Below are positions 2-34,523 of a stretch of DNA of 64,000 nucleotides, piece after piece (position 1 is the stretch's first letter; each line of letters starts with the position of its first letter). Under the pieces are notes generated by a model that was not told where the DNA came from, searched no databases, and saw only the letters and a list, made by a program, of their open reading frames with translations. The DNA is from Azospirillaceae bacterium (lineage in GTDB: Bacteria > Pseudomonadota > Alphaproteobacteria > Azospirillales > Azospirillaceae), in NCBI GenBank assembly GCA_028283825.1, contig JAPWJW010000004.1, forward strand, positions 66,292 to 130,291. The letters run 5' to 3'. Made by a program: the position numbers and the translations under genes.

Positions 2-1780
2 CGCACGCTGCGGTCGCGTGCCTGGTTCGATAACCCGGCCAACGTCGATATGACGGCGCTGTACCTGGAGCGCTACCTCAATTTCGGCCTGAGCCTGGAG
101 GAATTGCAGTCCGGCAAGCCGGTCATCGGCATCGCCCAGACGGGGTCGGACCTCAGCCCCTGCAACCGCCATCACCTAGTGCTGGCAGAGCGCATCCGCG
201 AGGGCATCCGCACCGCTGGCGGCATCGTGCTGGAATTCCCCGTCCATCCCATCCAGGAGACGGGCAAGCGCCCCACCGCCGGGCTGGACCGCAACCTGGC
301 TTACCTGGCGCTGGTGGAGGTGCTGTACGGCTATCCGCTGGACGGCGTGGTGCTGACGACGGGGTGCGACAAGACCACGCCGGCCTGCCTGATGGCGGCG
401 GCCACGGTCAACATCCCCGCCATCTCCCTGTCCGTGGGCCCCATGCTGAACGGCTGGTTCAAGGGCGAACGCACCGGTTCCGGCACCATCGTGTGGAAGG
501 CGCGGGAGATGCTGGCGGCGGGGGAGATCGACTACCAGGGTTTCATCAAGCTGGTGGGGTCGTCCGCACCCTCCACCGGTTATTGCAACACCATGGGTAC
601 CGCCACCACCATGAACAGCCTGGCGGAAGCGCTGGGCATGTCCCTGACCGGTTCCGCCGCCATTCCCGCGCCCTATCGCGACCGGGCGGAATCGGCCTAT
701 CGCACCGGCCTGCGCATCGTGGAGATGGTGCGCGAGGATCTGAAGCCGTCGGACATCCTGACGCGTGAGGCCTTCCTGAACGCCGTCGCCGTCAACTCCG
801 CCATCGGCGGGTCCACCAACGCGCCCATCCATTTGAACGCGCTGGCCCGCCATATTGGCGTGGATTTGGACCTGGATGACTGGCAGCGCCACGGCCTGGA
901 CATCCCGCTGCTGGTGAACCTTCAGCCGGCCGGCGAGTATCTGGGGGAGGATTATTACCGCGCCGGCGGCGTGCCGGCGGTTGTGTCCCAGCTGATGGCC
1001 CATGGCCTGATCCATGAGGGCGCCATGACCGTGTCGGGTCGCACCATCGGTGAGGAATGCCGGGGTGTCGCCATCGAGGATGAGAAGGTCATCCGACCGT
1101 TCGACCAGCCCCTGAAGGCCACGGCCGGCTTCAAGGTGCTGCGCGGTAATCTCTTCGACAGCGCCATCATGAAGACCAGCGTCATCTCTGACGAATTCCG
1201 CGCCCGCTATCTCTCCAACTCCGACGACCCGGATGCGTTCGAGGGCAAGGCCGTGGTGTTCGATGGGCCGGAGGATTACCACCACCGCATTGACGACCCG
1301 GCCCTGGGCATTGATGAGACCACCGTGCTGTTCATGCGCGGCGCCGGCCCCATCGGCTACCCGGGCGCGGCGGAGGTGGTGAACATGCGCCCGCCCGTCT
1401 ACCTGATCCAGAAGGGCGTGCACGCGCTGGCCTGCATTGGCGATGGGCGGCAGTCCGGCACCTCCGGTTCCCCCTCCATCCTCAACGCCTCGCCCGAGGC
1501 GGCGGCAGGTGGCAACCTCGCCATCCTGCGCACCGGCGACCGCGTGCGCATCGATTTGCGCCAGGGCCGCGCCGACATCCTGATCAGCGACCAGGAACTG
1601 GCCGCGCGCCGCCAGGCGCTGAAGGATGCCGGCGGCTACCCGTATCCGGAAAGCCAGACACCGTGGCAGGAGATCCAGCGCGGCTGCGTCGGCCAGCTGG
1701 AAACCGGGGCGGTGCTGGAACTGGCGGTCAACTACCAGCGCATCGCCCAGACCAAGGGCCTGCCGCGCGACAACCACTAA
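2..1780 (+). CDS. xylD: IlvD/Edd-family sugar-acid dehydratase, probably D-xylonate dehydratase (5' partial)
   Basis: Dehydrates a sugar acid (D-xylonate, possibly L-arabinonate) to the 2-keto-3-deoxy acid in the non-phosphorylative pentose pathway; cytoplasmic. The frame is open to the left edge: about 16 codons before the ATG at 50 read [16 protein letters not shown], which continues the family N-terminus, so the gene starts upstream of the window and the ATG at 50 is internal. Numbered from that ATG, the Fe-S cluster cysteines are C38 ([10 protein letters not shown]), C106 (TTGCDKT) and C179 (STGYCNTMG). The C-terminus [10 protein letters not shown] is the usual end of Caulobacter XylD-like proteins, and overall length is close to the roughly 590 residues of that family. 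It lies 63 bp before an arabinanase gene on the same strand, so L-arabinonate is a possible substrate. Family assignment is firm; the exact substrate is inferred. Confidence 0.88.
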
Positions 1781-1843
1781 ACACTAGGCCCAGGAACCCC
1801 GGCCGGTCGGATCGGGGGTGGGCGACAGGAGAGGGAGAGACGA

Positions 1844-2908
1844 ATGCTCACACGGCGTATCCTTCTGGGCGGCTGCCTGACCGGTGCCGCCCTGGCCATG
1901 ACTTCGGCGCGCGGTTTCGCCCAGGTGGCGGGGCAACTGGCGGCGCCGGAGGCCGAACCCCACCCCAATGAGACCTTCGGCGACCGCATGACCGGGGACC
2001 TCAGCCCGGCGCACGACCCCTGCATCATCAAGCAGGGCGACACCTATTACGTCTTCGGTAGCGACGCGCTGGGCGGGGAGGGCGAACACCACATCCCGTG
2101 GAAGACGTCCAAGGATCTGATCAACTGGACGGCGCGGGGCGATCTGTTCACCAGCCTGCCGCCTTGGGCGCAGCAGGCGGTGCCGGGGACCAAGGCGATG
2201 TGGGCACCCGACATCTCGTTCATCAACGGCCGCTATCACCTGTACTATGCGATGTCGACCTTCGGCGGCAACCGCTCGGCCATCGGCCTTTACACCAATG
2301 CCACGCTGGATCCGGCCGACCCTACCTATGCCTGGAAGGAAGAGGGGCTGGTCTTCGCCTCGGTGGAAAGCGACGATTACAACTGCATCGACCCGGCGCA
2401 CTTCGTGGACCGTGAGGGCAACCGCTGGCTGGTGTTCGGCAGCTTCTGGGGCGGCATCAAGATGATCGCCCTGGACCGGGCCACCGGCAGGCCCAAGGCC
2501 GACCGCAAGGTCTATTCCCTGATCCACCGCCCGGCCCCGGAACACGCCCCCGATGCGGTGGAGGCGCCGTTCATGATTGAGCGTGACGGCTGGTACTACC
2601 TGTTCGCGTCCTTCGATTATTGCTGCAAGGGGGAGAACAGCAGCTATTACGTGGTGGTCGGCCGGTCCAGGAAGGTCACCGGTCCCTATGTCGGCCGCGA
2701 CGGCAAGTCGATGATGGACGGCTACGGCACCCAGCTGATCCATGGCGATAGCCGCTGGCGCGGGCCGGGGCATGAGGCGGTGCTGCGCGACGGGGACCGG
2801 GACTACCTCGTCTATCACACCTATGACGCCACCAAGCACGGCGCCAGTACCCTGCGCATCTCCCCCATCACCTGGACGCCCGATGGCTGGCCGACGGTGA
2901 CGCTGTAA
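1844..2908 (+). CDS. GH43 endo-1,5-alpha-L-arabinanase, exported
   Basis: Cleaves alpha-1,5-linked arabinan of plant pectin. The N-terminus has a twin-Arg start (LTRRILLGG) and a signal peptide ending near AQVAG (about residue 27), so export through Tat is likely. The five-bladed GH43 signatures are in order: catalytic base D58 in AHDPC, pKa-modulating D183 in NCIDPAHF, and general acid E240 in VEAPFMI. The cluster FDYCCKGENSSYYVVVGRS is typical of endo-arabinanases. Its 354 residues match single-domain members. It starts 63 bp after the sugar-acid dehydratase on the same strand, which fits joint expression for arabinan and pentose use. A strong hairpin follows the stop codon. Confidence 0.9.
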   Translation: MLTRRILLGGCLTGAALAMTSARGFAQVAGQLAAPEAEPHPNETFGDRMTGDLSPAHDPCIIKQGDTYYVFGSDALGGEGEHHIPWKTSKDLINWTARGDLFTSLPPWAQQAVPGTKAMWAPDISFINGRYHLYYAMSTFGGNRSAIGLYTNATLDPADPTYAWKEEGLVFASVESDDYNCIDPAHFVDREGNRWLVFGSFWGGIKMIALDRATGRPKADRKVYSLIHRPAPEHAPDAVEAPFMIERDGWYYLFASFDYCCKGENSSYYVVVGRSRKVTGPYVGRDGKSMMDGYGTQLIHGDSRWRGPGHEAVLRDGDRDYLVYHTYDATKHGASTLRISPITWTPDGWPTVTL

Positions 2909-2922
2909 GCGAAAGACCCGGG

Positions 2923-2950
2923 TGCCGGGACGGACGCGCGCGTCCCGGCA
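2923..2950 (+). terminator. Hairpin after the GH43 gene
   Basis: A perfect 10-bp inverted repeat (TGCCGGGACG / CGTCCCGGCA) with an 8-nt loop lies 15 bp after the arabinanase stop. It has no T tract, so it is a hairpin that may terminate or stabilise the transcript rather than a textbook intrinsic terminator. AT-rich DNA with a possible -10 (TATACT, 2984-2989) follows, before the next gene. Confidence 0.5.
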
Positions 2951-3118
2951 TGTCTGCAAAGAAAAGTTTATCAGAATGTATGATATACTCGCTTGATGAT
3001 GCCCCTACAAAGGTAGTTTTTGGATAGAGTTAGAAAATGGTTGGCGATGGGAACGAAAATTTCCTGTGCCATCCAGTCGGCGTTGGTTCCACATCCGTCA
3101 TATCCGGGGGGAAGACTG

Positions 3119-4135
3119 ATGACTTTGACCAGCGAACAGCGGAGTTTCCTGGCGCCCTATCTGCACGCGCTGGGACTCACGGCCGACAGCCTTTCGGAAC
3201 ATTCACTCGGCCCGGATACCCATGAGGGGCCGATGGTCGTTTCCGACGATCCGGCGCGCGACAATCTGGGTTCCGTCCCGCACCCCCTCACGGGGATTTA
3301 CGCGACCGCCGAGAACATCGTCATCACAGCGCAGAATCCGCTGATCATCGACAGCTCGGTGCCTGTGAGCCTGATCTTCAACGCGATGCTTATCCAGTCG
3401 GGCGGTTACATTCAGGCCAATACCACGGTCAAGATCACCGCGACGGTGATCTCGGCGACCACGGGCACCTCCAATGATGCCAATATCAGGATCACAAGCC
3501 TGAACGGCACGTCGCCCCCTTCCGGCGCACCAGGGCGTCCTGGCGGGGCCGGCACCAGCTTTTTCCCCGGCACGTGTGGCGGGGGCAACAACCAGTCCTG
3601 CGTCGCCAATCCGATCGCGCCGACCGATGGCGGGACGGGCGGCAATGCGCCGCCCGTCAATGGCGGTGGCCCGGGTGTTGCCGCCGGCGATTTTGTCGTC
3701 CAGGTCAATTTCATCTCCGGGACCTTCCAGGTGCAGGTCACCGGCGGCGGTGGCGGCCAGGGTGGTCAGGGGGGCACCGGCGGACCTGGCGGCGCGGGTG
3801 GCACTGGCGGAACGGCCGTGGGGTGCTGTGGCGGTGCGGTTTTCCCGGGGGGCAAGGGCGGGCAAGGCGGCAATGGCGCCGATGGTGGTGCCGGGGGTGA
3901 CGGGGCGCCCAGCGGGCCGACCGTCCAGGTCTTTTATTCGGCCACCAACGACAGCCAATGGTCTTATGACGCCAGCCAGTTCGGCGCCGGCGGCACGGGC
4001 GGCGCGCCGGGCGCCGCCGGGGCGCCCGGTATCGGCAATGGTGACTATGGCTGGGGCTCGGGCGGCACCGCCGGGGCGCCCGGCATCCCCACACCGCCCG
4101 ATCAGCGCGGCCAGGTGATCATTCAGCAGAGTTGA
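3119..4135 (+). CDS. Glycine-rich repeat protein of unknown function
   Basis: I do not recognise a functional family. The first ~120 residues are ordinary sequence (MTLTSEQRSFLAPYLHALG...), with a beta-rich stretch rich in I, V and T (NIVITAQNPLIIDSSVPVSL). From about residue 105 the protein becomes collagen-like or PGRS-like, with GG(Q/T/A)GG runs (about residues 210-260 and 295-330), two Cys pairs (TCGGGNNQSC and GCCGG), and breaks by beta-like segments (FVVQVNFISGTFQVQV). There is no clear signal peptide. ATG 3119 is chosen because GGGGGAAG precedes it by about 8 nt; an in-frame TTG at 3020 would add 33 residues without a better ribosome site. Its 3' end overlaps the convergent Fur-family gene by 17 bp. 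It may be a surface or matrix protein, but that is speculation. Confidence 0.7.
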   Translation: MTLTSEQRSFLAPYLHALGLTADSLSEHSLGPDTHEGPMVVSDDPARDNLGSVPHPLTGIYATAENIVITAQNPLIIDSSVPVSLIFNAMLIQSGGYIQANTTVKITATVISATTGTSNDANIRITSLNGTSPPSGAPGRPGGAGTSFFPGTCGGGNNQSCVANPIAPTDGGTGGNAPPVNGGGPGVAAGDFVVQVNFISGTFQVQVTGGGGGQGGQGGTGGPGGAGGTGGTAVGCCGGAVFPGGKGGQGGNGADGGAGGDGAPSGPTVQVFYSATNDSQWSYDASQFGAGGTGGAPGAAGAPGIGNGDYGWGSGGTAGAPGIPTPPDQRGQVIIQQS

Positions 4136-26707: not shown

Positions 26708-27314
26708 GAGACCGGCAGAGTCTCGACAATGGACGAGTTCAATGCCGCGATACAGGTCGCGTTCAGTGGGCTCTCCTGATTCGATTGGGATTCTGCAGGC
26801 TGCGGGATAAGTGCCTTGCCTCTCGGCCGGAACACACATAACGCGAAGACCAAGGGCCGCTTTCGGGGCGGGCGGCTCTTGCCTTTGGCCCGAAGCCATC
26901 GTCTGTGAGACATGATGTCAGGGCGCGCCTTAACCGCTGACAGGCGCCTCCTACACCACGCAGTGGGACGTGACCCGACCAGGAACATGATCGGAACCAA
27001 GGCCGACAGCTGAAGGTTGCTGTCCTATGTGTGCGGTCGCATAGGATTTGTGAGCCATGGACCATGAGCAGAGCCACGTGGTGCTGACCGTGCGTGAGGC
27101 GTGGGGTGCCGTATCAGGGTGGCTGGTCCTGGCTCGGCGGCCGGGCAAGTGACGCCGATGGCGCCGCCCATGGACAGACGTACCGGCATGTCCGGCTGTA
27201 CCTACGCCCCGGGACGGAGCGCGGGTTTCCATTTCGATACCACCGACAAGCTGCGGGCCCCCGATGATGCCCAAGCCTCGGCGAAACGGCTTGCATCCTG
27301 AAGGGAGGCCACCC
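26708..27314. other. 607-bp region with general-stress promoter and structured leader
   Basis: No gene of recognisable family. The first part holds a 16-codon ORF (26729-26779) and an imperfect hairpin near 26850-26880. An EcfG-type promoter lies at 26993-27018. Directly after its expected start is an inverted repeat TCCTATG / CATAGGA (27023-27046). Two short frames, 27057-27152 (31 aa, AGGA 10 nt upstream) and 27170-27301 (43 aa), could be leader peptides but have no support beyond position. The rest is probably the ligD 5' leader. Confidence 0.45.
26993..27018 (+). promoter_or_regulatory. EcfG-type promoter upstream of ligD
   Basis: GGAAC, 17 nt, GGTT. It matches the alphaproteobacterial general-stress pattern except for G in place of C at the first -10 position, as in two other sites in this window. 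It would start a transcript near 27025, about 290 nt before the ligD ATG. Confidence 0.55.
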
Positions 27315-29324
27315 ATGGCCCCGAGCATCGATGACGACGTGCTTGACCACCCCGACGGCGACCATAAGAAGCCCGCGACGGGCAAGACCATGCCCGCCCG
27401 CGCCAAGGGCCCGCCGCCGGCGTTTGTCGAGCCCACCCTAGCCACCCTGGTCGATGCGCCGCCCGACGGGCCCGGCTGGCTGTTCGAGCCCAAGTTCGAT
27501 GGCTACCGCGCCCTGGTGGCGGTATCGGGCGACCGGGTGGTGATCCATACCCGGTCGGGGCTGGACTGGACGGACCGCTTCCCTGGGCTGGTGCGGGCGC
27601 TGGTGGCCCTGGACCTGCCGCCCGTGCTGCTGGACGGTGAGATCGTCTCGCTGGACGCGCAGGGGCACAGCAACTTCAGCGCCCTGCAAAAGGCGCTGAA
27701 GAACGATCAGGCGGCGCTCAGTTTTTACGTGTTCGACCTGCCGGCGGAAACGGGGCGCGACTGGGCATCCCGGCCCCTGGTGGACCGCAAGGCCCGCCTG
27801 GCCATGCTGCTGGGGGAAACCGGCAAGACCGGCCCCGTCTTTTTCACCGAACACGTCATGGCGGACGGCGCCGGCCTGTGGACCACCCTGTGCGACCAGG
27901 GGTTCGAGGGCATCATCGCCAAGCGCGCCATCTCCCCCTATCGGCCGGGGCGGGGCCATGATTGGCTGAAAATCAAGTGCGGCAACCGGCAGGAATTCGT
28001 CATCGTCGGCTGGTCCCCCTCCAGTCATGGCCGCGCCTTCGCCTCGCTGCTGCTGGGCCTGCGGGAGGGAGGGGAATTGCGCTACGCCGGCCGCGTCGGC
28101 ACGGGTTTCGATGCCGATACCCTCACCGGCCTGCACGCCCGCCTGCGCGACCTGACCCGCAAGACGCCCGGCGTGGCCATCGAGACGGTGCCCCTGGCCG
28201 TCGCCCGCGATGCCCGCTGGGTGCGCCCCGACCTGGTGGCGGAGGTCGCGTTCGCCGGCTTCACCGGGGACCGCCTGGTGCGCCAGGGGCGCTACCTGGG
28301 CCTGCGCGGTGACAAGCCGGCGCAAGCGGTCGTGCTGGAAAAGGCGGAGCCGATGGCCAAGGCCGTACGGGCCAAGGACCCCGCGGCCGGCGACGGCGAC
28401 AGGATGGACGGCGTGGTCCTGACGCATCCCGACCGGGTGCTGGATCCGGCGTCGGGGCTGACCAAGCGCCAACTGGCGACGTACCTGCACATCATGGCGC
28501 CGCGCATGGTGCCCTATGCCGCCGGCCGGCTGTTGAGCCTGCTGCGTTGTCCGGAAGGCTACGCGCAGGCCTGTTTCTTCCAGCGCCATGCCGGCGCCGG
28601 CACACCGCCCCAGTTGCGCCGCCGGCCGGTGAAGGAAAAGGACGGTCGGCTGATGGACTATTTCTACCTGGCCGACGCCGGCGGGCTGATCGCCGCGGCG
28701 CAGGTGGGCGTGCTGGAACTGCACCTGTGGGGGAGCCCGGTGCGCCGCCTGGAATCGCCGGACCGGCTGGTCTTCGACCTGGATCCGGAGGAGGGGCTGC
28801 CCTTCGCCCAGGTGAAGGCGGCGGCAATCGCGGTGCGCGATGTGCTGGCGGCGCTGGATCTGGCCAGTTTCCCGTTGCTGACCGGCGGCAAGGGGGTGCA
28901 CGTGGTGGCGCCGCTAGGGCCGGGCGGGGCGGGCGGTCGCCGCCAATGGCCGGTGGTCAGCGCCTTCGCCAAGGGGGTGGCGTCGCAGTTGGTGGAGGCC
29001 AACCCGGATGCCTATGTGGCGACGATGAGCAAGGTGCGGCGCCAGGGCCGGCTGTTCATCGACCATTTCCGTAATGCCCGGGGGGCCACCGCCATCGCCC
29101 CCTATTCCACCCGGGCCCGGCCCGGCACCCCCATCGCCTGTCCCGTCAGTTGGGACGATCTGGCGAAGGCGGACCGCGCCGATGGCCGCACCATCGCCAC
29201 TGCGTCCGCCCTGGCCCGCGGCCCCGACCCCTGGGCCGGGTATTTCGACCAGGACCAGGACCTGACCACGCGCGCCTGCCATGTCCTGGGTGTGAAGGTC
29301 GGGGCGGGGGCGAAACAGGATTGA
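27315..29324 (+). CDS. ligD: ATP-dependent DNA ligase D (ligase and polymerase domains, no phosphoesterase)
   Basis: Repairs double-strand breaks by non-homologous end joining with Ku. Residues ~35-330 are the ligase domain: adenylation Lys K60 in EPKFDGYR, DGEIV, FEGIIAKR and DWLKIKC, then an OB fold. Residues ~375-660 are the archaeo-eukaryotic primase-like polymerase: the metal-binding FDLDPE motif, GGKGVHVV and RLFIDHFRNARGATAIAPYS. The N-terminal 3'-phosphoesterase domain found in many LigD proteins is absent. ATG 27315 is decided by AGGGAGG upstream. Neighbours are a SemiSWEET-like gene and topoisomerase IB in a tight run. No Ku gene is in the window, and an EcfG-type promoter lies upstream. 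Confidence 0.93.
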   Translation: MAPSIDDDVLDHPDGDHKKPATGKTMPARAKGPPPAFVEPTLATLVDAPPDGPGWLFEPKFDGYRALVAVSGDRVVIHTRSGLDWTDRFPGLVRALVALDLPPVLLDGEIVSLDAQGHSNFSALQKALKNDQAALSFYVFDLPAETGRDWASRPLVDRKARLAMLLGETGKTGPVFFTEHVMADGAGLWTTLCDQGFEGIIAKRAISPYRPGRGHDWLKIKCGNRQEFVIVGWSPSSHGRAFASLLLGLREGGELRYAGRVGTGFDADTLTGLHARLRDLTRKTPGVAIETVPLAVARDARWVRPDLVAEVAFAGFTGDRLVRQGRYLGLRGDKPAQAVVLEKAEPMAKAVRAKDPAAGDGDRMDGVVLTHPDRVLDPASGLTKRQLATYLHIMAPRMVPYAAGRLLSLLRCPEGYAQACFFQRHAGAGTPPQLRRRPVKEKDGRLMDYFYLADAGGLIAAAQVGVLELHLWGSPVRRLESPDRLVFDLDPEEGLPFAQVKAAAIAVRDVLAALDLASFPLLTGGKGVHVVAPLGPGGAGGRRQWPVVSAFAKGVASQLVEANPDAYVATMSKVRRQGRLFIDHFRNARGATAIAPYSTRARPGTPIACPVSWDDLAKADRADGRTIATASALARGPDPWAGYFDQDQDLTTRACHVLGVKVGAGAKQD

Positions 29325-29332
29325 GCACGGCC

Positions 29333-29620
29333 ATGAACGCGGGCGCGTCGGGGGTGGACATCATCGGCTGGGCGGCGGCGCTGCTGCTGTTCCTGACCCT
29401 GGCCTGCCAGGTGTGGACGCAGTGGCGCGAACGGTCGACCAAGGGGGTGTCGAAATGGCTGTTCGCCGGGCAGATCGCCACCTCCCTCGGTTTCGTCGCG
29501 TATTCCTGGATGCTGGGCAACTGGGTGTTCGTCACCACCAACGCCCTGGTCCTGGCGACGGCCGTGGTGGGGCAATGCCTGTACACGGTCTGTGCCCGGC
29601 GGAAGGCGGCGGCTGAATGA
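29333..29620 (+). CDS. Small PQ-loop/SemiSWEET-like membrane protein
   Basis: 95-residue integral membrane protein with three predicted helices (about residues 9-27, 41-60, 66-86), the size and topology of a SemiSWEET half-transporter, which dimerises to pass sugars. The PQ signature is weak (CQVWTQWRERSTKGVSKWLF keeps the T/S-K-G-V-S loop). ATG 29333 is used; a TTG at 29321 overlapping the ligD stop is possible. It sits 8 bp after ligD and overlaps topIB by 4 bp (ATGA), so the three genes are translationally linked. Its role in a DNA-repair run is unclear. Confidence 0.7.
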   Translation: MNAGASGVDIIGWAAALLLFLTLACQVWTQWRERSTKGVSKWLFAGQIATSLGFVAYSWMLGNWVFVTTNALVLATAVVGQCLYTVCARRKAAAE

Positions 29621-30639
29621 CCGACGCGGCGGGCCTGGTCTATGTCAGCGATGGTGAGCCCGGCATCCGGCGCCGCAAGGTCGGTTCGGGTTTCGGCTAT
29701 CGCCTGCCGGACGGGACGACGGTCAGGGACAAGGGGGTGCTGGCCCGCCTGCGCGCCCTGGTCATCCCACCGGCCTGGACCGACGTCTGGATCTGTCCCG
29801 ACCCCGACGGGCATCTGCAGGTCACCGGCCGCGACGCCAAGGGGCGCAAGCAGTACATCTACCATCCCGCGTTTCGCCAGGCGCGCGATGGCGCCAAATT
29901 CCAGCACCTGCTGGAATTCGCCCGGCGGCTGCCCGATATCCGCAACGCCGTCGCCCGCGATTTGGGCGTGCCCGGCCTGCCGCGGGAGAAGGTGCTGGCC
30001 ACCGTGGTGCACCTGCTGGGCACCACCCTGATCCGCGTGGGCAACGCCGACTATGCCCGCACCAACCGCAGTTACGGCCTGACCACCCTGCGCGCCGCCC
30101 ACGTCAGTGTGGAGAAATCACAGCTGCGTTTCAGCTTCCGGGGCAAGAGTGGCAAGGAATGGCGGCTGAAGGTGACGGACCGGCGCGTCGCCCGCATCGT
30201 CAAGGCCTGCCAGGAACTGCCGGGCCAGCCGCTGTTCCAGTACCTGGACGCCGACGGCCACCGGCGGGAGGTGACCTCCGCCGACGTCAACGCCTATCTG
30301 CGCGCGGCGACAGGCGATAAGGGGGAGATGGTGACGGCCAAGGATTTCCGCACCTGGGCCGGTACCGTCATGATGGCCCTGGCGCTCAGCGACGCGCCGG
30401 CGCCCACCAGCCCCACCCATGGCCGGCGCATGATCACCACGGCGCTGAAACGGGTGGCGGCCCGCCTGGGCAACACCGTCACCGTCTGCCGGCAATGCTA
30501 CGTCCATCCGGCGATCATGGACGAATACCTGGCGGGCCGCTTTCACCTGCGCCGGCGTAGCGAAGGGCATGAAGGCCTGTCGGCGGAAGAGGCGGCGGTG
30601 GTGACCCTGCTGCGCCGTGCCACTCACAATATCACCTGA
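29617..30639 (+). CDS. DNA topoisomerase IB (poxvirus-like)
   Basis: Relaxes supercoils by nicking one strand and forming a 3'-phosphotyrosyl link. The 340 residues have the N-terminal DNA-binding domain (1-~80), R140 in LIRVGN, KSGKEW (177-182) holding the catalytic Lys, R245 in KDFRTWAGT, and nucleophile Tyr Y295 in CRQCYVHPAI. All pieces of the active site are present. It overlaps the SemiSWEET-like gene by 4 bp and is the third gene after ligD, so joint general-stress expression is plausible. It is distinct from the essential type IA and type II enzymes. Confidence 0.92.
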   Translation: MTDAAGLVYVSDGEPGIRRRKVGSGFGYRLPDGTTVRDKGVLARLRALVIPPAWTDVWICPDPDGHLQVTGRDAKGRKQYIYHPAFRQARDGAKFQHLLEFARRLPDIRNAVARDLGVPGLPREKVLATVVHLLGTTLIRVGNADYARTNRSYGLTTLRAAHVSVEKSQLRFSFRGKSGKEWRLKVTDRRVARIVKACQELPGQPLFQYLDADGHRREVTSADVNAYLRAATGDKGEMVTAKDFRTWAGTVMMALALSDAPAPTSPTHGRRMITTALKRVAARLGNTVTVCRQCYVHPAIMDEYLAGRFHLRRRSEGHEGLSAEEAAVVTLLRRATHNIT

Positions 30640-30730
30640 TCTTATTGGTATGATGCTGAGTTGCGATTTGTCTTATGTCTGGGCGCCGCCCATCTTCCGC
30701 TCATCCGACAGATCGCAAAGGATGGACGAC

Positions 30731-31234
30731 ATGCATGAGATCATTTGGCCGGAGGGCTACATCCCCGGCTTCAGCGACAACTTCGCCTCCAACGAGGTGA
30801 TCGTGGCCGGCCTGAGCGCCGCCGACATCTGGCCCTTCCTGGCCCGGGCGCCGCTGTGGCCCACCTATTACGCCAACTCCGCCAACATCCGTTTTCATGA
30901 CGGCAAGGGGCCGGAACTGGCCGATGGCGACCGCTTCTATTTCGAGACCTTCGGTTTCCCGGTCGAGGCGCAGGTGGTGGAATATGTGCCGCCGGCGGAT
31001 GGCCGGCCGGGCCGCGTCGCCTGGCATGGCTGGGCGGGCGAGGGCGACACCCGCCTGGACGTCCACCACGCCTGGCTGGTGGAGGATCTGCCGGGGGGCC
31101 GTGTCCGCGTCCTGACCCAGGAAACCCAGAACGGCAATCCGGCCAAGGACTTGGCGCGGACCAGACCCAATCCCATGATCAACGGCCACCAGGACTGGCT
31201 GGACGGCCTGGTGGCGGCGGCGCGTAAGGCCTGA
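30731..31234 (+). CDS. SRPBCC-family protein (START/Bet v1-like fold)
   Basis: Predicted small-ligand-binding or cyclase-like protein of 167 residues. The pattern EVIVAGLSAADIWPFLARAPLWPTYY, a central beta sheet (YFETFGFPVEAQVVEYV; GRVAWHGWAGEG; DVHHAWLVEDL) and a long C-terminal helix (HQDWLDGLVAAARKA) fits polyketide_cyc2-like SRPBCC proteins. ATG 30731 (MHEIIWPEGY) is preferred since AAGGA lies 8 nt upstream; ATG 30722 is too close to that site. The 91 bp before it hold a TATGAT-like -10 (30650). Ligand and function are unknown. Confidence 0.75.
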   Translation: MHEIIWPEGYIPGFSDNFASNEVIVAGLSAADIWPFLARAPLWPTYYANSANIRFHDGKGPELADGDRFYFETFGFPVEAQVVEYVPPADGRPGRVAWHGWAGEGDTRLDVHHAWLVEDLPGGRVRVLTQETQNGNPAKDLARTRPNPMINGHQDWLDGLVAAARKA

Positions 31235-31276
31235 CGTGAGGCTTTCCGGCGGGCGTTCCGGGAAAGGAGCGCCCGT

Positions 31277-31516
31277 CTACTGCCTGCGTTTCTTCTGATC
31301 CGCCGCCAGACGGTCGACCAGGTCCAGCAAGTCCTGGGGCAGGGGCTCGTTGGCCACTTCGTTGAACATCTCGCGCAGGCCGCGCGTGATGGCGTCCGGG
31401 GCACCGTCGGTGGTCCCGTCGTCAGGCCGCTCATCACGCTGTGCGTGGGGTGCCGCCGCCGTGGCGGTCAGGAGGGGGGCGCGCTTCCCGGTCGCGGGCT
31501 TCCGCTGTTTCGTCAT
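31277..31516 (-). CDS. nepR: NepR-type anti-sigma factor of the general stress response
   Basis: Binds and sequesters the sigma factor EcfG until displaced by activated PhyR. The short protein (79 residues) has a disordered basic/Ala N-terminus and the conserved NepR core at residues ~44-70, ITRGLREMFNEVANEPLPQD followed by LLDLVDRL, which matches the family pattern LR.(V/M)(Y/F).(D/E)V.NEP(V/L)P...LDLL. It lies downstream of a phyR-like gene on the same strand and opposite ecfG. ATG 31516 follows GAGGGAG. I rate this assignment high because all three partners are adjacent. Confidence 0.88.
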   Translation of the reverse strand: MTKQRKPATGKRAPLLTATAAAPHAQRDERPDDGTTDGAPDAITRGLREMFNEVANEPLPQDLLDLVDRLAADQKKRRQ

Positions 31517-31685
31517 GGTGCCGCTCCCTCGGAAAAATGCCCCTCACCCCCGGCCTCGGAAGCCGGCCACCCCGACCTTAGTCGAGGCGCCAACGGGGGA
31601 CAAAGGCAAAACGCCGCCGACGGGGTCGGGGAAGGAAGTGGTGGGCGGCCGGTTGGTTCCGGCGTTTTATCACCATCCCTATCGG

Positions 31686-32306
31686 CTACATCATCATCGC
31701 CGGCGTGCGGCCGCCCTCGCCCCGCGACATCGCCGCCTGCCGGGTGCGGGCGACGGCCAGGATTTCGTGGTCCAGCGCCGCGACCTGCTTCTTCAGGTGC
31801 CGCGCGACCATCATGTCATCCTCGATGATCAGGACGCCGGTGCGCAGGCGGTCGGCGATGGCCGCCCTGGCGAGATGGATGTTCCGGCGCACCGGCGCCA
31901 AGGGCAGGCCCATGATCAAGGCCGTCTCTTCCGCCGTGAACCCTTCCACCGCTGTCAGCAGCAGGGCCTCACGCTCTTCGGCCGGCAAGGCGTGCAACAG
32001 GGCGCGCGGGCCCGCGCTGGACAGGCCCTCATCCCCCAGTTCCAGATGGCCGCCGGCATAGATGCGGTGGAACAGGCGGAACAGGGCCACGCGGTCGGGC
32101 CGCAGTCCCAGGACGCCGACGCCGTCCTGGACCAGGGTTTCCAGCACCATGCGCACATAGGCGTCGCCGCTGGCGGCGCTGCCCGTCAGCGCACGGGCAT
32201 AGCGGCGCAGGTTCGGCACCGCCGCCGCGATGGTGTCGGTGAGGGGCGAGGCGGGCTGCTGAACGGTGTGCGGGGCGGATTTTCCATGTACCGGCATGAC
32301 CTGCAT
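31686..32306 (-). CDS. phyR: PhyR-type anti-anti-sigma regulator with truncated receiver domain
   Basis: Sigma-mimic regulator that normally sequesters NepR when its receiver is phosphorylated. Residues ~22-155 are the sigma-like domain (PNLRRYARALTGSAASGDAYV; SVEGFT-like AVEGFTAEETALIMGL). The receiver begins at ~158 (GVLIIEDDMMVARHLKKQVAALDHEILAVARTRQ) but stops at residue 206 with RTPAMMM. It thus keeps strand 1, the acidic pocket and strand 2, and lacks the phosphoacceptor Asp, the switch Thr/Ser and the Lys; full PhyR has about 265 residues. The other two frames downstream do not encode the missing part. ATG 32306 (GAGGAG upstream, tight spacing) or 32297 may be the start; longer forms to 32486 are unlikely. 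Confidence 0.82.
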   Translation of the reverse strand: MQVMPVHGKSAPHTVQQPASPLTDTIAAAVPNLRRYARALTGSAASGDAYVRMVLETLVQDGVGVLGLRPDRVALFRLFHRIYAGGHLELGDEGLSSAGPRALLHALPAEEREALLLTAVEGFTAEETALIMGLPLAPVRRNIHLARAAIADRLRTGVLIIEDDMMVARHLKKQVAALDHEILAVARTRQAAMSRGEGGRTPAMMM

Positions 32307-32699
32307 CGCTCCTCTGCTATCGGTTCTTCGGGTGGGGTTACACATGTCAAACCGGTGGAGCGCCCGGAAAGTTTCCGAGCCTGCGCATTTTTGACGGCAT
32401 AAGCGCGGCGAAAATGCGCGGCCTTTCCCAGCACCCAAGAAAACGTGAAGATGCGTAGGACGCCCGCAATAGCAAATTAGGCCCATATTAGGCTGATCCG
32501 GATACGCCCCATAAACACAGATGGCAAAATAGAGGCGGACAATGACTCTCGGAAAAGCCAGGGACTCTTTGAGTGTTCGGATATAACATTGGAATGCGCA
32601 TCACGGAATGCGCCACGATATCTGTCGTCGCTCCACGAGCTTGTCGTATTTCCCTGAGTATTTAACTCGCAGGGAATATCCTTTTCAAGGAGGCAGCCC
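32307..32699. other. 393-bp divergent promoter region phyR/ecfG
   Basis: Relatively AT-rich spacer between the phyR-like gene and ecfG. No gene is seen. I looked for an EcfG-type promoter toward either gene and found no exact one; the best is a minus-strand GGAAA-N18-GGTT (32350-32376), which is weak. The ecfG start has a strong AAGGAGG. Confidence 0.5.
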
Positions 32700-33308
32700 A
32701 TGCCATCCGATTCTTCCGCCGTTGAACTCAGCACACCGTCCCGGGTTGCCCCTGCCGGCGAACCCGATTTCCGGGATGAGGTGGTGCGCCTGCTGCCGGC
32801 GTTGCGCGCCTTCGCCCGCTCGCTCACCAACAACGCGGCCGACAGCGACGATCTGGTCCAGGACTGCGTCGTCCGCGCCTGGTCCCATGCCCACCAGTTC
32901 ACCGCCGGCACCAACCTGCGCGCCTGGCTGTTCACCATCCTGCGCAACCGCCACTATTCCCTGGCCAAGCGCCGCCAGCGCGAGGTGGCCGATCCCGAAG
33001 GCTTCCACACCGCCCGCCTGATGATGGAACCGTCGCAGGAATGGGGCATCACCGGCCGTGAATTGAAGGCGGCCCTGGCGGCCTTGCCGGAGGATCAGCG
33101 TGAGGCGCTGGTGCTGGTGGGCGGTGCCGGCGTCAGTTACGAGGAGGCGGCCGAGATTTGCGGCTGCGCCCTGGGCACCATCAAGAGCCGCGTCAACCGT
33201 GCCCGGACCAAGCTGGCGGCCCTGATGGGCATGCCGGGGCGGGTCGTTCCTTTGAGCAGTCCCAGCTTGTCGGGCCTGCAGGCCACCACGCAGTGGACCC
33301 GGCACTGA
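32700..33308 (+). CDS. ecfG: ECF sigma factor EcfG (general stress response)
   Basis: Alternative sigma factor of 202 residues directing RNA polymerase to GGAAC-type promoters. Region 2 (about 24-95) has the EcfG-typical LLPALRAFARSLTNNAADSDDLVQDCVVRAW and LRAWLFTILRNRHYS. Region 4 (about 128-185) has ALAALPEDQREALVLVGGAGVSYEEAAEICGCALGTIKSRVNRAR. It lacks extra domains. ATG 32700 is preceded by AAGGAGG. It is divergent from phyR-nepR, and the genes that follow carry EcfG-type promoters, so the sigma factor and part of its regulon are side by side. Confidence 0.93.
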   Translation: MPSDSSAVELSTPSRVAPAGEPDFRDEVVRLLPALRAFARSLTNNAADSDDLVQDCVVRAWSHAHQFTAGTNLRAWLFTILRNRHYSLAKRRQREVADPEGFHTARLMMEPSQEWGITGRELKAALAALPEDQREALVLVGGAGVSYEEAAEICGCALGTIKSRVNRARTKLAALMGMPGRVVPLSSPSLSGLQATTQWTRH

Positions 33309-33330
33309 CGCGTTGCGGTGAGGTTCCGGT

Positions 33331-33356
33331 GGAACAAGCGGCCACGCTTCCGCGTT
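33331..33356 (+). promoter_or_regulatory. EcfG-type promoter of the DUF892 gene
   Basis: GGAAC, 17 nt, CGTT: an exact match to the general-stress consensus, 57 bp before the DUF892 start codon and directly after ecfG. Confidence 0.8.
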
Positions 33357-33412
33357 GTGGCACGGCGGGGCTATTTCCATAGGGCATCGCCATACGAAGC
33401 GGAGGAACGGCC

Positions 33413-33916
33413 ATGGGTTTGTTCACCAAAGACATCCAGACGCTGCAGGACCTGTTCGTCCACCAGTTGAAGGACATTTATTACGCGGAACACCGCATCG
33501 CCAAGGCCCTGCCCAAGATGGCCGAAAAGGCCACCGACCATGAACTGCGCCATGGGTTCGAGACGCATCTGCGTGAAACCATCGAGCAGATCGCCCGGCT
33601 GGAACAGGTGTTCCACCTGCATGGCGCCGTGGCGGAAGGGGTGAAGTGCCCCTCCATCGACGGCATCCTGGATGAGGCGGAGCAGATGGCGTCGGAGATC
33701 GCCGACAAGGATGTGCTGGACGCCGCCCTGGTCGCCGCCGCCCAGGCGGTGGAGCATTACGAGATTTCCCGTTACGGCACCCTGTTGGCCTGGGCCGGTA
33801 TCCTGGGCCGGGAGGACAGCGCCCACCTGCTGCGCCATAGCCTGGATGAGGAAAAGGCGACGGACGAACGCCTGACCATGCTGGCCAAGGCCAGGCTGAA
33901 CCGGGCGGCGGCGTGA
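33413..33916 (+). CDS. DUF892 (YciF/YciE-like) ferritin-like stress protein
   Basis: Small four-helix ferritin-like protein of 167 residues, a family induced by general stress in many Proteobacteria. Conserved start LFTKDIQTLQDLFVHQLKDIYYAEHRIAKALPKMAEKA, with carboxylates and His in each helix (YYAEHR; HELRHGFETHLRET; EHYEISRYGTLLAWA; HSLDEEKATDERL) that could bind a di-metal centre. It follows ecfG and has its own perfect EcfG promoter. Biochemical function is unknown; oxidative or osmotic stress protection is inferred from the family and promoter. Confidence 0.9.
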   Translation: MGLFTKDIQTLQDLFVHQLKDIYYAEHRIAKALPKMAEKATDHELRHGFETHLRETIEQIARLEQVFHLHGAVAEGVKCPSIDGILDEAEQMASEIADKDVLDAALVAAAQAVEHYEISRYGTLLAWAGILGREDSAHLLRHSLDEEKATDERLTMLAKARLNRAAA

Positions 33917-33975
33917 GCCCATCCGCTTTAGGTTGTGGCGAAAATAAGGTATTTCCCCGTTCCTCGACGCCAGCA

Positions 33976-34001
33976 GGAACAAAAGGAAACTTCCGGTGGT
34001 T
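33976..34001 (+). promoter_or_regulatory. EcfG-type promoter of the PRC-barrel gene
   Basis: GGAAC, 17 nt, GGTT; one -10 position differs from the CGTT consensus. It is 111 bp upstream of the PRC-barrel gene start and lies in a region without other genes. Confidence 0.55.
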
Positions 34002-34112
34002 CTTCAATCCGTTAAGACAGTTTTGTTGAAGCAACCGGGCAACCTTGGCGCCACCCCGCCGGACCTTAACCGGGGGATCTCAAAGGCGCCGCCCACAACC
34101 GGAGGAATTACC

Positions 34113-34523
34113 ATGAAACGCGCCAACCTGTATCTGGCCGCCGCCCTCAGCGTCTCCGCCCTGGGCACCGCCGTCGTCCTGCCGTCCGCCCCGTCGCAGG
34201 CGCAGGGCACCACCCAGCGCATCGCCACCACCAAGGTGGACGTGGTCACCGTGGCCGCCGGCCACCGCTCGTCCAAGATCGTCGGCGCCAAGGTGGTGAA
34301 CGATCAGAACGACACCGTCGGCACCGTCGATGACCTGATCATCTCGCCCAAGGACAGCGTGCCCTACGCCGTCCTCTCGGTGGGTGGTTTCCTGGGCGTG
34401 GGTGATCGTCTGGTCGCCATCCCGTTCAGCGCCCTGCAGGTGACGGACGACAAGATCACCCTGCCGGGCGGCAACAAGGACGTGCTGAGCAAGCAGCCCG
34501 AGTTCCATTACACCAAGAGCTAA
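34113..34523 (+). CDS. Exported PRC-barrel domain protein
   Basis: Signal peptide (MKRANLYLAAALSVSALGTAVVLPSAPSQA, cut near residue 30), then one PRC-barrel of about 80 residues (SSKIVGAKVVNDQNDTVGTVDDLIISP...YAVLSVGGFLGVGDRLVAIPFSAL). Secreted PRC-barrel proteins are common in alphaproteobacterial stress regulons; their binding partner is not known. ATG 34113 is preferred (GGAGGAAT 6 nt upstream). An EcfG-type promoter and a strong terminator bracket the gene, making it a single-gene stress unit. Confidence 0.85.
   Translation: MKRANLYLAAALSVSALGTAVVLPSAPSQAQGTTQRIATTKVDVVTVAAGHRSSKIVGAKVVNDQNDTVGTVDDLIISPKDSVPYAVLSVGGFLGVGDRLVAIPFSALQVTDDKITLPGGNKDVLSKQPEFHYTKS

Follow-up and report, generated by a model that had tools for sequence, protein, structure and literature searches.

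In the general stress response of the Alphaproteobacteria, signals enter through the receiver domain of PhyR, at least in the accessible text of the published accounts. The usual account holds that the unphosphorylated receiver occludes the sigma-like (SL) domain (PMC4598750, accessible part); the mechanism that links phosphorylation to the capture of the anti-sigma factor NepR is described as unclear, and NepR may bind PhyR first, acting together with phosphorylation (PMC12148442, accessible part). In two structures, 2LFW and 3T0Y, an SL domain without a receiver is bound to NepR, as judged from title and chain length. A literature search with little of the subscription literature in its coverage returned no title or abstract on a natural PhyR without a receiver and no paper that treats Nitrospirillum and PhyR together.

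Nitrospirillum is a genus of plant-associated nitrogen fixers, and its stress tolerance is of practical interest. Here we describe a general stress response locus in a Nitrospirillum genome (7.16 Mb in 5 contigs), located in a 64,000-nucleotide stretch of DNA (the window), in which the gene in the place of phyR encodes an SL domain followed by a receiver stub; we call this gene phyR-SL.

The general stress response locus

The initial annotation of the window, made from its sequence, described nepR and a phyR-like gene side by side with a divergent ecfG, and Pfam matches to all three genes bear this out (Table 1). It also described the SL domain as complete; in agreement, the phyR-SL product matches both PhyR sigma-like models above cut-off, that is, PhyR_sigma2 (PF22029, 69 bits) and PhyR_sigma-like (PF22233, 39.5 bits). 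The start of phyR-SL was chosen by eye (ATG at 32297, with AGGAG 10 nt before it); both elements are conserved across six aligned species, again read by eye, and this ATG, not the first ATG of the longer frame (32486), is most likely the start.

Table 1. Features of the phyR-SL locus and related matches in the window genome (positions are those of the window unless a contig is named).
Feature	Position	Strand	Basis and remarks
nepR, anti-sigma factor, 79 aa	31277-31516	-	Pfam NepR 36.6 bits; same strand as phyR-SL, downstream of it
phyR-SL (receiver-less PhyR), 203 aa	31686-32297 (stop codon included)	-	Pfam and alignment
SL domain, complete, residues 19-152	31842-32243	-	Pfam, model helices, PDB matches
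Receiver stub, residues 154-203: strand 1 with IIEDD, helix 1, strand 2, short tail	31689-31838	-	
ecfG, general stress response sigma factor	32700-33308	+	Sigma70_r2 and Sigma70_r4_2; divergent from phyR-SL
EcfG-like promoter GGAAAC-N17-GGTT	32350-32376	-	52 nt before phyR-SL start
EcfG-type promoter GGAAC-N17-CGTT	33331-33356	+	before DUF892 gene at 33413
EcfG-type promoter GGAAC-N17-GGTT	33976-34001	+	before PRC-barrel gene at 34113
LigD-like DNA ligase gene	27264-29324		named by eye
Type IB topoisomerase-like gene	29617-30639		named by eye
DUF892 gene	33413-33916		Pfam
PRC-barrel gene	34113-34523		Pfam
Other PhyR_sigma2 matches	EcfG; ECF at C3:359 kb; EcfG2 at C3:590 kb; one at C5:171 kb		C3:359 kb has an anti-sigma-like neighbour

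AlphaFold2 on nine sequences gave a moderate model (mean pLDDT 75, pTM 0.57) with seven helices between residues 18 and 152 (the SL domain) and a beta-alpha-beta stub. The best Foldseek matches of this model are PhyR chains, the first from the PhyR-NepR complex 4QIC; the model also matches 2LFW and 3T0Y, both SL-only complexes (with a poor superposition on 3T0Y), and the RpoE-NepR complex 5UXX. By sequence, the protein matches 3T0Y at 2e-18 and 2LFW at 4e-14, and the window NepR matches the NepR of 3T0Y weakly (E 0.012). The fold match to the RpoE of 5UXX, together with the sigma region 4 profiles that match phyR-SL, is what would be expected if the SL domain, once without its receiver, had reverted to a true sigma factor that drives transcription itself; this is extremely unlikely, because the product has no Sigma70_r2 match at E up to 1 and 69 bits to PhyR_sigma2, whereas the EcfG of the same locus has 58 bits to Sigma70_r2.

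The genes that surround the locus (27264-34523), that is, the ligase and topoisomerase-like genes on one side and the adjoining DUF892 and PRC-barrel genes on the other, look like members of a stress regulon.

The receiver is reduced to a stub

In the initial annotation, the phyR frame ends after receiver strand 2, with the acidic pocket kept and the phosphoacceptor Asp, switch residue and Lys gone. Alignment to full-length PhyRs confirms this: the frame keeps strand 1 with its acidic pair (IIEDD), helix 1 and strand 2 (EILAVARTR) and ends after a further 17 residues, QAAMSRGEGGRTPAMMM, so that the stub of 50 residues is without the Asp, the switch Thr/Ser and the Lys. The acceptor Asp is present in 79/79 aligned receivers, so its absence from the window gene is beyond ordinary variation. 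In the phyR-SL product, hmmscan finds no Response_reg match up to E = 1, and none of the 124 Response_reg matches of the genome lies at the phyR-SL locus.

The rest of the receiver was sought in the nearby frames with a receiver profile (six-frame ORFs of at least 40 aa; matches of at least 15 bits counted) and with tblastn, and neither found it in a frame other than that of phyR. The profile matches positions 1-39 only (18.9 bits) and tblastn finds only the first 49 receiver positions, both in the phyR frame; because the receiver traces are confined to this frame, the earlier statement that a simple frameshift does not explain the truncation holds. A PhyR response regulator is defined by a receiver domain with the Asp, the switch Thr/Ser and the Lys, which the window gene lacks; phyR-SL is outside this definition, and its product probably works like the SL half of PhyR.

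No second PhyR found in the window genome

The search of the complete genome for a second full-length PhyR that the initial annotation proposed was run in three ways, with the protein (tblastn), with the PhyR_sigma2 profile and with a full-length-PhyR profile built from a nine-sequence alignment; none of these detected a second PhyR there. The remaining matches to PhyR_sigma2 that exceed the cut-off (Table 1) are read as ECF factors. One of them (L004 1429-2064, minus strand, at G000:C3:359 kb) scores 78 bits with PhyR_sigma2, compared with 71 bits for the window PhyR in the same search.

The initial annotation offered three roles for the truncated protein: a constitutive NepR antagonist, a locked competitor or a dead copy backed by another PhyR. 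The last is not supported, since the searches turned up no other PhyR and purifying selection acts on the SL domain (see below). In the second, the protein would bind NepR or another partner without freeing EcfG and so dampen the response. A PhyR paralogue of Rubellimicrobium thermophilum does bind NepR decoupled from phosphorylation, in a role described as unclear (PMC12148442, accessible part); however, the searches gave no PhyR besides phyR-SL, which leaves it no other antagonist to compete with, and such a decoy is very unlikely. The first, constitutive antagonism, is now the best reading, as the SL domain alone binds NepR in 2LFW and 3T0Y (by their titles) and the truncation occurs in 7/7 Nitrospirillum genomes.

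The truncation is shared by seven Nitrospirillum genomes

A comparison with sister species had also been proposed, and all seven Nitrospirillum genomes searched share the truncation. Each of the six others contains one PhyR, located beside nepR and cut even shorter than the window gene: on a 264-position model the PhyR match ends at position 148-152 in the six sisters and at 188 in the window genome, and the sister phyR-SL products have 179-197 aa. In the sister receivers strand 1 is kept (VLMLEDDM or close), after which the sequences diverge; the tails that follow the SL domain differ in sequence and mostly in length among Nitrospirillum. The window gene is the longest stub and is located outside five sisters in the SL tree (fork of five 92/81; the tree was built without the sixth sister, a near-copy). 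This is the pattern that a single ancestral loss with subsequent erosion would leave.

In 7/7 genomes phyR-SL is adjoined by a NepR match that exceeds the cut-off. In six of the seven ecfG adjoins it as well, and the sister ecfG match is 80-85% identical in 5/6. The exception is N. iridis (L050 / L070), in which a PRC-barrel gene occupies the place of the neighbouring ecfG; phyR-SL and nepR are kept, and the genome still has a second EcfG and a weak second NepR match.

As a separate observation, the window genome encodes another EcfG, and divergent from it is a NepR-like gene that scores under the Pfam cut-off (L057, G000:C3:587500-593500; 2809-3390, minus strand, and 3853-4089, plus strand). 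The same EcfG was found in 6/6 sister genomes, accompanied by a weak NepR match in five of them.

Because no second PhyR was found and the sisters each have one shortened PhyR, the truncation is neither a sequencing error nor a backed-up dead copy. The two findings that would speak for an artefact, a sister genome with a full receiver and an assembly error, were looked for and not encountered; a frameshift or assembly error was rejected, since seven assemblies agree and no further trace of a receiver was detected in any frame. Divergent PhyR-like paralogues are known in other genera of the family, so a very divergent full PhyR could conceivably be located elsewhere in the genome; however, the profile detected no full PhyR in any of the seven genomes, yet it picks up the divergent paralogues in those other genera. 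An assembly error or a missed PhyR is therefore scarcely credible.

A stand-alone receiver encoded elsewhere might instead bind the SL domain in trans and so restore phospho-control. All seven genomes do have other receivers that match the receiver part of the PhyR model (best 73-81 bits), many of them in short frames, and one in the window genome is beside a HisKA_2 kinase (L055). The neighbourhoods of four window-genome receivers were inspected and three of the proteins were read; none looks PhyR-derived. The three (140, 142 and 139 aa) are without the PhyR motif FPERLLTGERPEPAFLI-KPF, no general stress response gene is located in the surrounding 6 kb, and no receiver match was found in any frame of 9-14 kb around the six sister genes; this argues against a split PhyR, which we consider improbable. 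The L055 kinase itself (568-2730, plus strand) has an ETR1_N (ethylene-receptor-like) domain, PAS and HisKA_2, and the single-domain receiver that adjoins it (~2730-3095, plus strand) has 68.7 bits to the receiver part of the PhyR model.

Putative EcfG-type promoters

The EcfG consensus is given as GAAC-N16,17-C/GGTT (PMC4814048, accessible part). The pattern upstream of phyR-SL in the window is also found upstream of phyR in five sister loci, and the sixth (L045) has GGAAC-N16-GGTT; thus, L045 fits the published consensus and the other six of the seven genomes have one A more. The whole 64-kb window contains GGAAAC-N17-GGTT once, and 54 loci from other genera (183 kb together) contain it 3 times. 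The site before the PRC-barrel gene of the window fits the consensus; a site of this kind also precedes the gene in L045, L049 and L050 and, as a near fit with TGTT as the -10 element, in L048, whereas the stretches fetched for L046 and L047 showed no PRC-barrel gene. The pattern that includes the site before the DUF892 gene, GGAAC-N15..18-CGTT, was found twice in the window compared with 1.5 expected by chance, which is weak alone. As the consensus-like pattern in the window alone is no commoner than chance, the argument rests on conservation.

Receiver-less PhyRs in a second genus

When 385 genomes from across the class were searched, 63 of them (44/277 genera) had an SL match at E <= 1e-24, at 66 places altogether. 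The window gene lies in a 304-aa open frame, so the length of the open frame alone is a poor test of truncation; the loci were therefore fetched. At the 65 places that were read (G123 was left out), 60 have at least 113 receiver positions, four are without a receiver, and one (G126) is cut by the end of its contig, with 65 receiver positions visible before it; G202, below the scan threshold and cut by a contig end, was left out of the count. The four receiver-less places belong to the window genome and to three species of genus g147 (G215, G315, G396; family f135). A fourth g147 species (G462) is also without the receiver, that is, all four species of the genus share this architecture. A plasmid search returned 22 records with PhyR relatives.

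In three g147 species the phyR-SL product has 184-185 aa (for G462 the start of the gene is uncertain), and the genes are in the usual order, with phyR-SL facing a NepR-like gene that is followed by ecfG. The NepR-like genes were assigned from their position and motif; the scores of the three that were scanned are 24.3, 12.0 and 19.7 bits, below the Pfam cut-off of 25.7. Near this gene an EcfG-type pattern is present in 4/4 loci, in G215 inside the longest frame of the gene; as a control, GGAAC-N16,17-[CG]GTT was counted in the 54 loci from other genera (183 kb), where it occurs 89 times, so a single instance per 0.6-0.8-kb g147 stretch gives weak support. Two species have a further, full-length PhyR-like gene, located beside a HisKA_2 kinase; the other two have no second match at E <= 1e-15 and no HWE kinase match at E <= 1e-5. 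The HWE kinase matches are few, with 3-5 per Nitrospirillum genome and 0 in G215 and G315, compared with 17 in G012 (the sole full-PhyR genome searched).

In the SL tree each receiver-less group is a clade at 100/100, and the two are apart in the best tree; a tree that joins them is not rejected (p-AU 0.283). The first tree (90 rows), in which three changes of receiver label are needed, held long, divergent rows, and it was rebuilt with 20 of the 90 rows dropped, including divergent paralogues and four near-copies. The two genera belong to different families, most other genera have full receivers, and both the break points and the gene order differ; for these reasons the receiver was likely lost independently in Nitrospirillum and in g147.

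Other members of the Azospirillaceae contain further PhyR variants. The PhyR of G017 (L033 1468-2238, plus strand) is full-length, with a receiver that has Ser for the acidic-pocket Asp, Ser for the Thr and a five-residue gap after the Asp; from these residues it is possibly another PhyR that no longer switches by phosphorylation. In G092, from the same genus as G017, a shorter PhyR match of intermediate score was found. Twelve PhyR-like proteins (L028, L029, L031, L034-L036 and L038-L043) form a separate, well-supported clade; many have SIMIVEDDAIIAFDLAETV-type receivers, and each genome that was read has one or two of them.

Selection on the SL domain

The ratio dN/dS was estimated with our own script, so all values are rough pairwise estimates. 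In Nitrospirillum the SL domain has 0.09-0.37 (21 pairs, Nei-Gojobori; mean 0.25 with slightly different limits), the poorly conserved tails 0.17-1.8 and EcfG 0.02-0.11 (six genomes). In a comparison with intact PhyRs from twelve genera (21 pairs, 20 finite), 18/20 of the SL values are at most 0.26 and the others are 0.31 and 0.51; the receiver-less SL domains have 0.19-0.41 in Nitrospirillum (15 pairs from 6/7 sequences) and 0.19-0.54 in g147 (6 pairs). The SL domain is under purifying selection that is real but relaxed relative to most intact PhyRs; because its dN/dS exceeds that of most intact PhyRs and is well above that of EcfG, part of the constraint is gone.

This relaxation is the starting point of the main rival explanation, in which Nitrospirillum is in the process of losing the PhyR-NepR-EcfG switch: the loss began with the receiver, the SL domain is drifting slowly, and the control of EcfG falls to NepR alone or to some other means. 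Such a vestige would fit the SL dN/dS, which exceeds that of most intact PhyRs by a factor of about two to three, and also the long branch (1.41) that leads to the genus in the SL tree, the missing ecfG neighbour in N. iridis and the variable tails. However, the reading frame is intact in all seven genomes, with dS from the window gene of ~0.6-0.8, and the SL dN/dS is clearly below 1; the start, the AGGAG and the promoter boxes are conserved, NepR is kept throughout the genus, and four species of a second genus retain the same architecture. We regard slow dismantling as unlikely.

A switch that may work by amount

We favor, with a confidence somewhat better than even, the reading that phyR-SL encodes a free SL domain that binds NepR without phosphorylation, in a partner switch that would be set by dosage; the binding of NepR is predicted from homology to 2LFW, 3T0Y and 4QIC. 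Without the receiver the SL domain would be neither occluded nor phosphorylated, and the simplest outcome would be constitutive capture of NepR to an extent set by the ratio of phyR-SL to NepR, on which the amount of free EcfG would then depend. The phyR-SL and nepR genes presumably share a transcript; since they are consecutive on one strand behind an EcfG-like promoter, the output of EcfG could be set by dosage, by feedback, by the turnover of both antagonists or by a further input. Since the stability of PhyR is reported to be regulated in some species (PMC8103513, accessible part), the input may be turnover. The phyR-SL switch thus probably works by amount and not by phosphorylation.

The broader picture is more tentative, and we would put it slightly short of an even chance: two alphaproteobacterial lineages may each have dropped the phospho-switch and kept the mimic, leaving a titration circuit of sigma mimic, anti-sigma factor and EcfG with a kinase arm that is shrunken or gone. 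The occurrence of a natural SL-only PhyR in 7/7 genomes of one genus and in four of another suggests that the mimic can persist without the switch. This is a natural experiment on whether phosphorylation is needed for the capture of NepR in the cell or is a mere gate.

Comparison with known systems

The usual PhyR, which acts as anti-anti-sigma response regulator in the general stress response of the Alphaproteobacteria (3N0R, 4G97, 9BY5), has the same sigma2 and sigma4 parts in its SL domain as phyR-SL, with ~30-44% identity over the shared part, and is likewise encoded in a locus with nepR and ecfG; however, phyR-SL has only a receiver stub that is without the phosphoacceptor. The SL domains of 2LFW and 3T0Y resemble phyR-SL in architecture, but by their titles they are fragments of normal PhyRs made for structure work, whereas phyR-SL is a natural gene product. 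For RT-PhyR' of R. thermophilum (9CB6) a phosphorylation-independent function has been proposed, as here (PMC12148442, accessible part); RT-PhyR' differs from phyR-SL in that it keeps a whole receiver with the Asp and coexists with a normal PhyR. A further counterpart is the SL-only PhyR of g147, which, as in Nitrospirillum, has an intact SL domain with ecfG and a NepR-like gene adjoining; it differs from that of Nitrospirillum in its canonical gene order and in the full PhyR-like second gene that is present in two of the four species.
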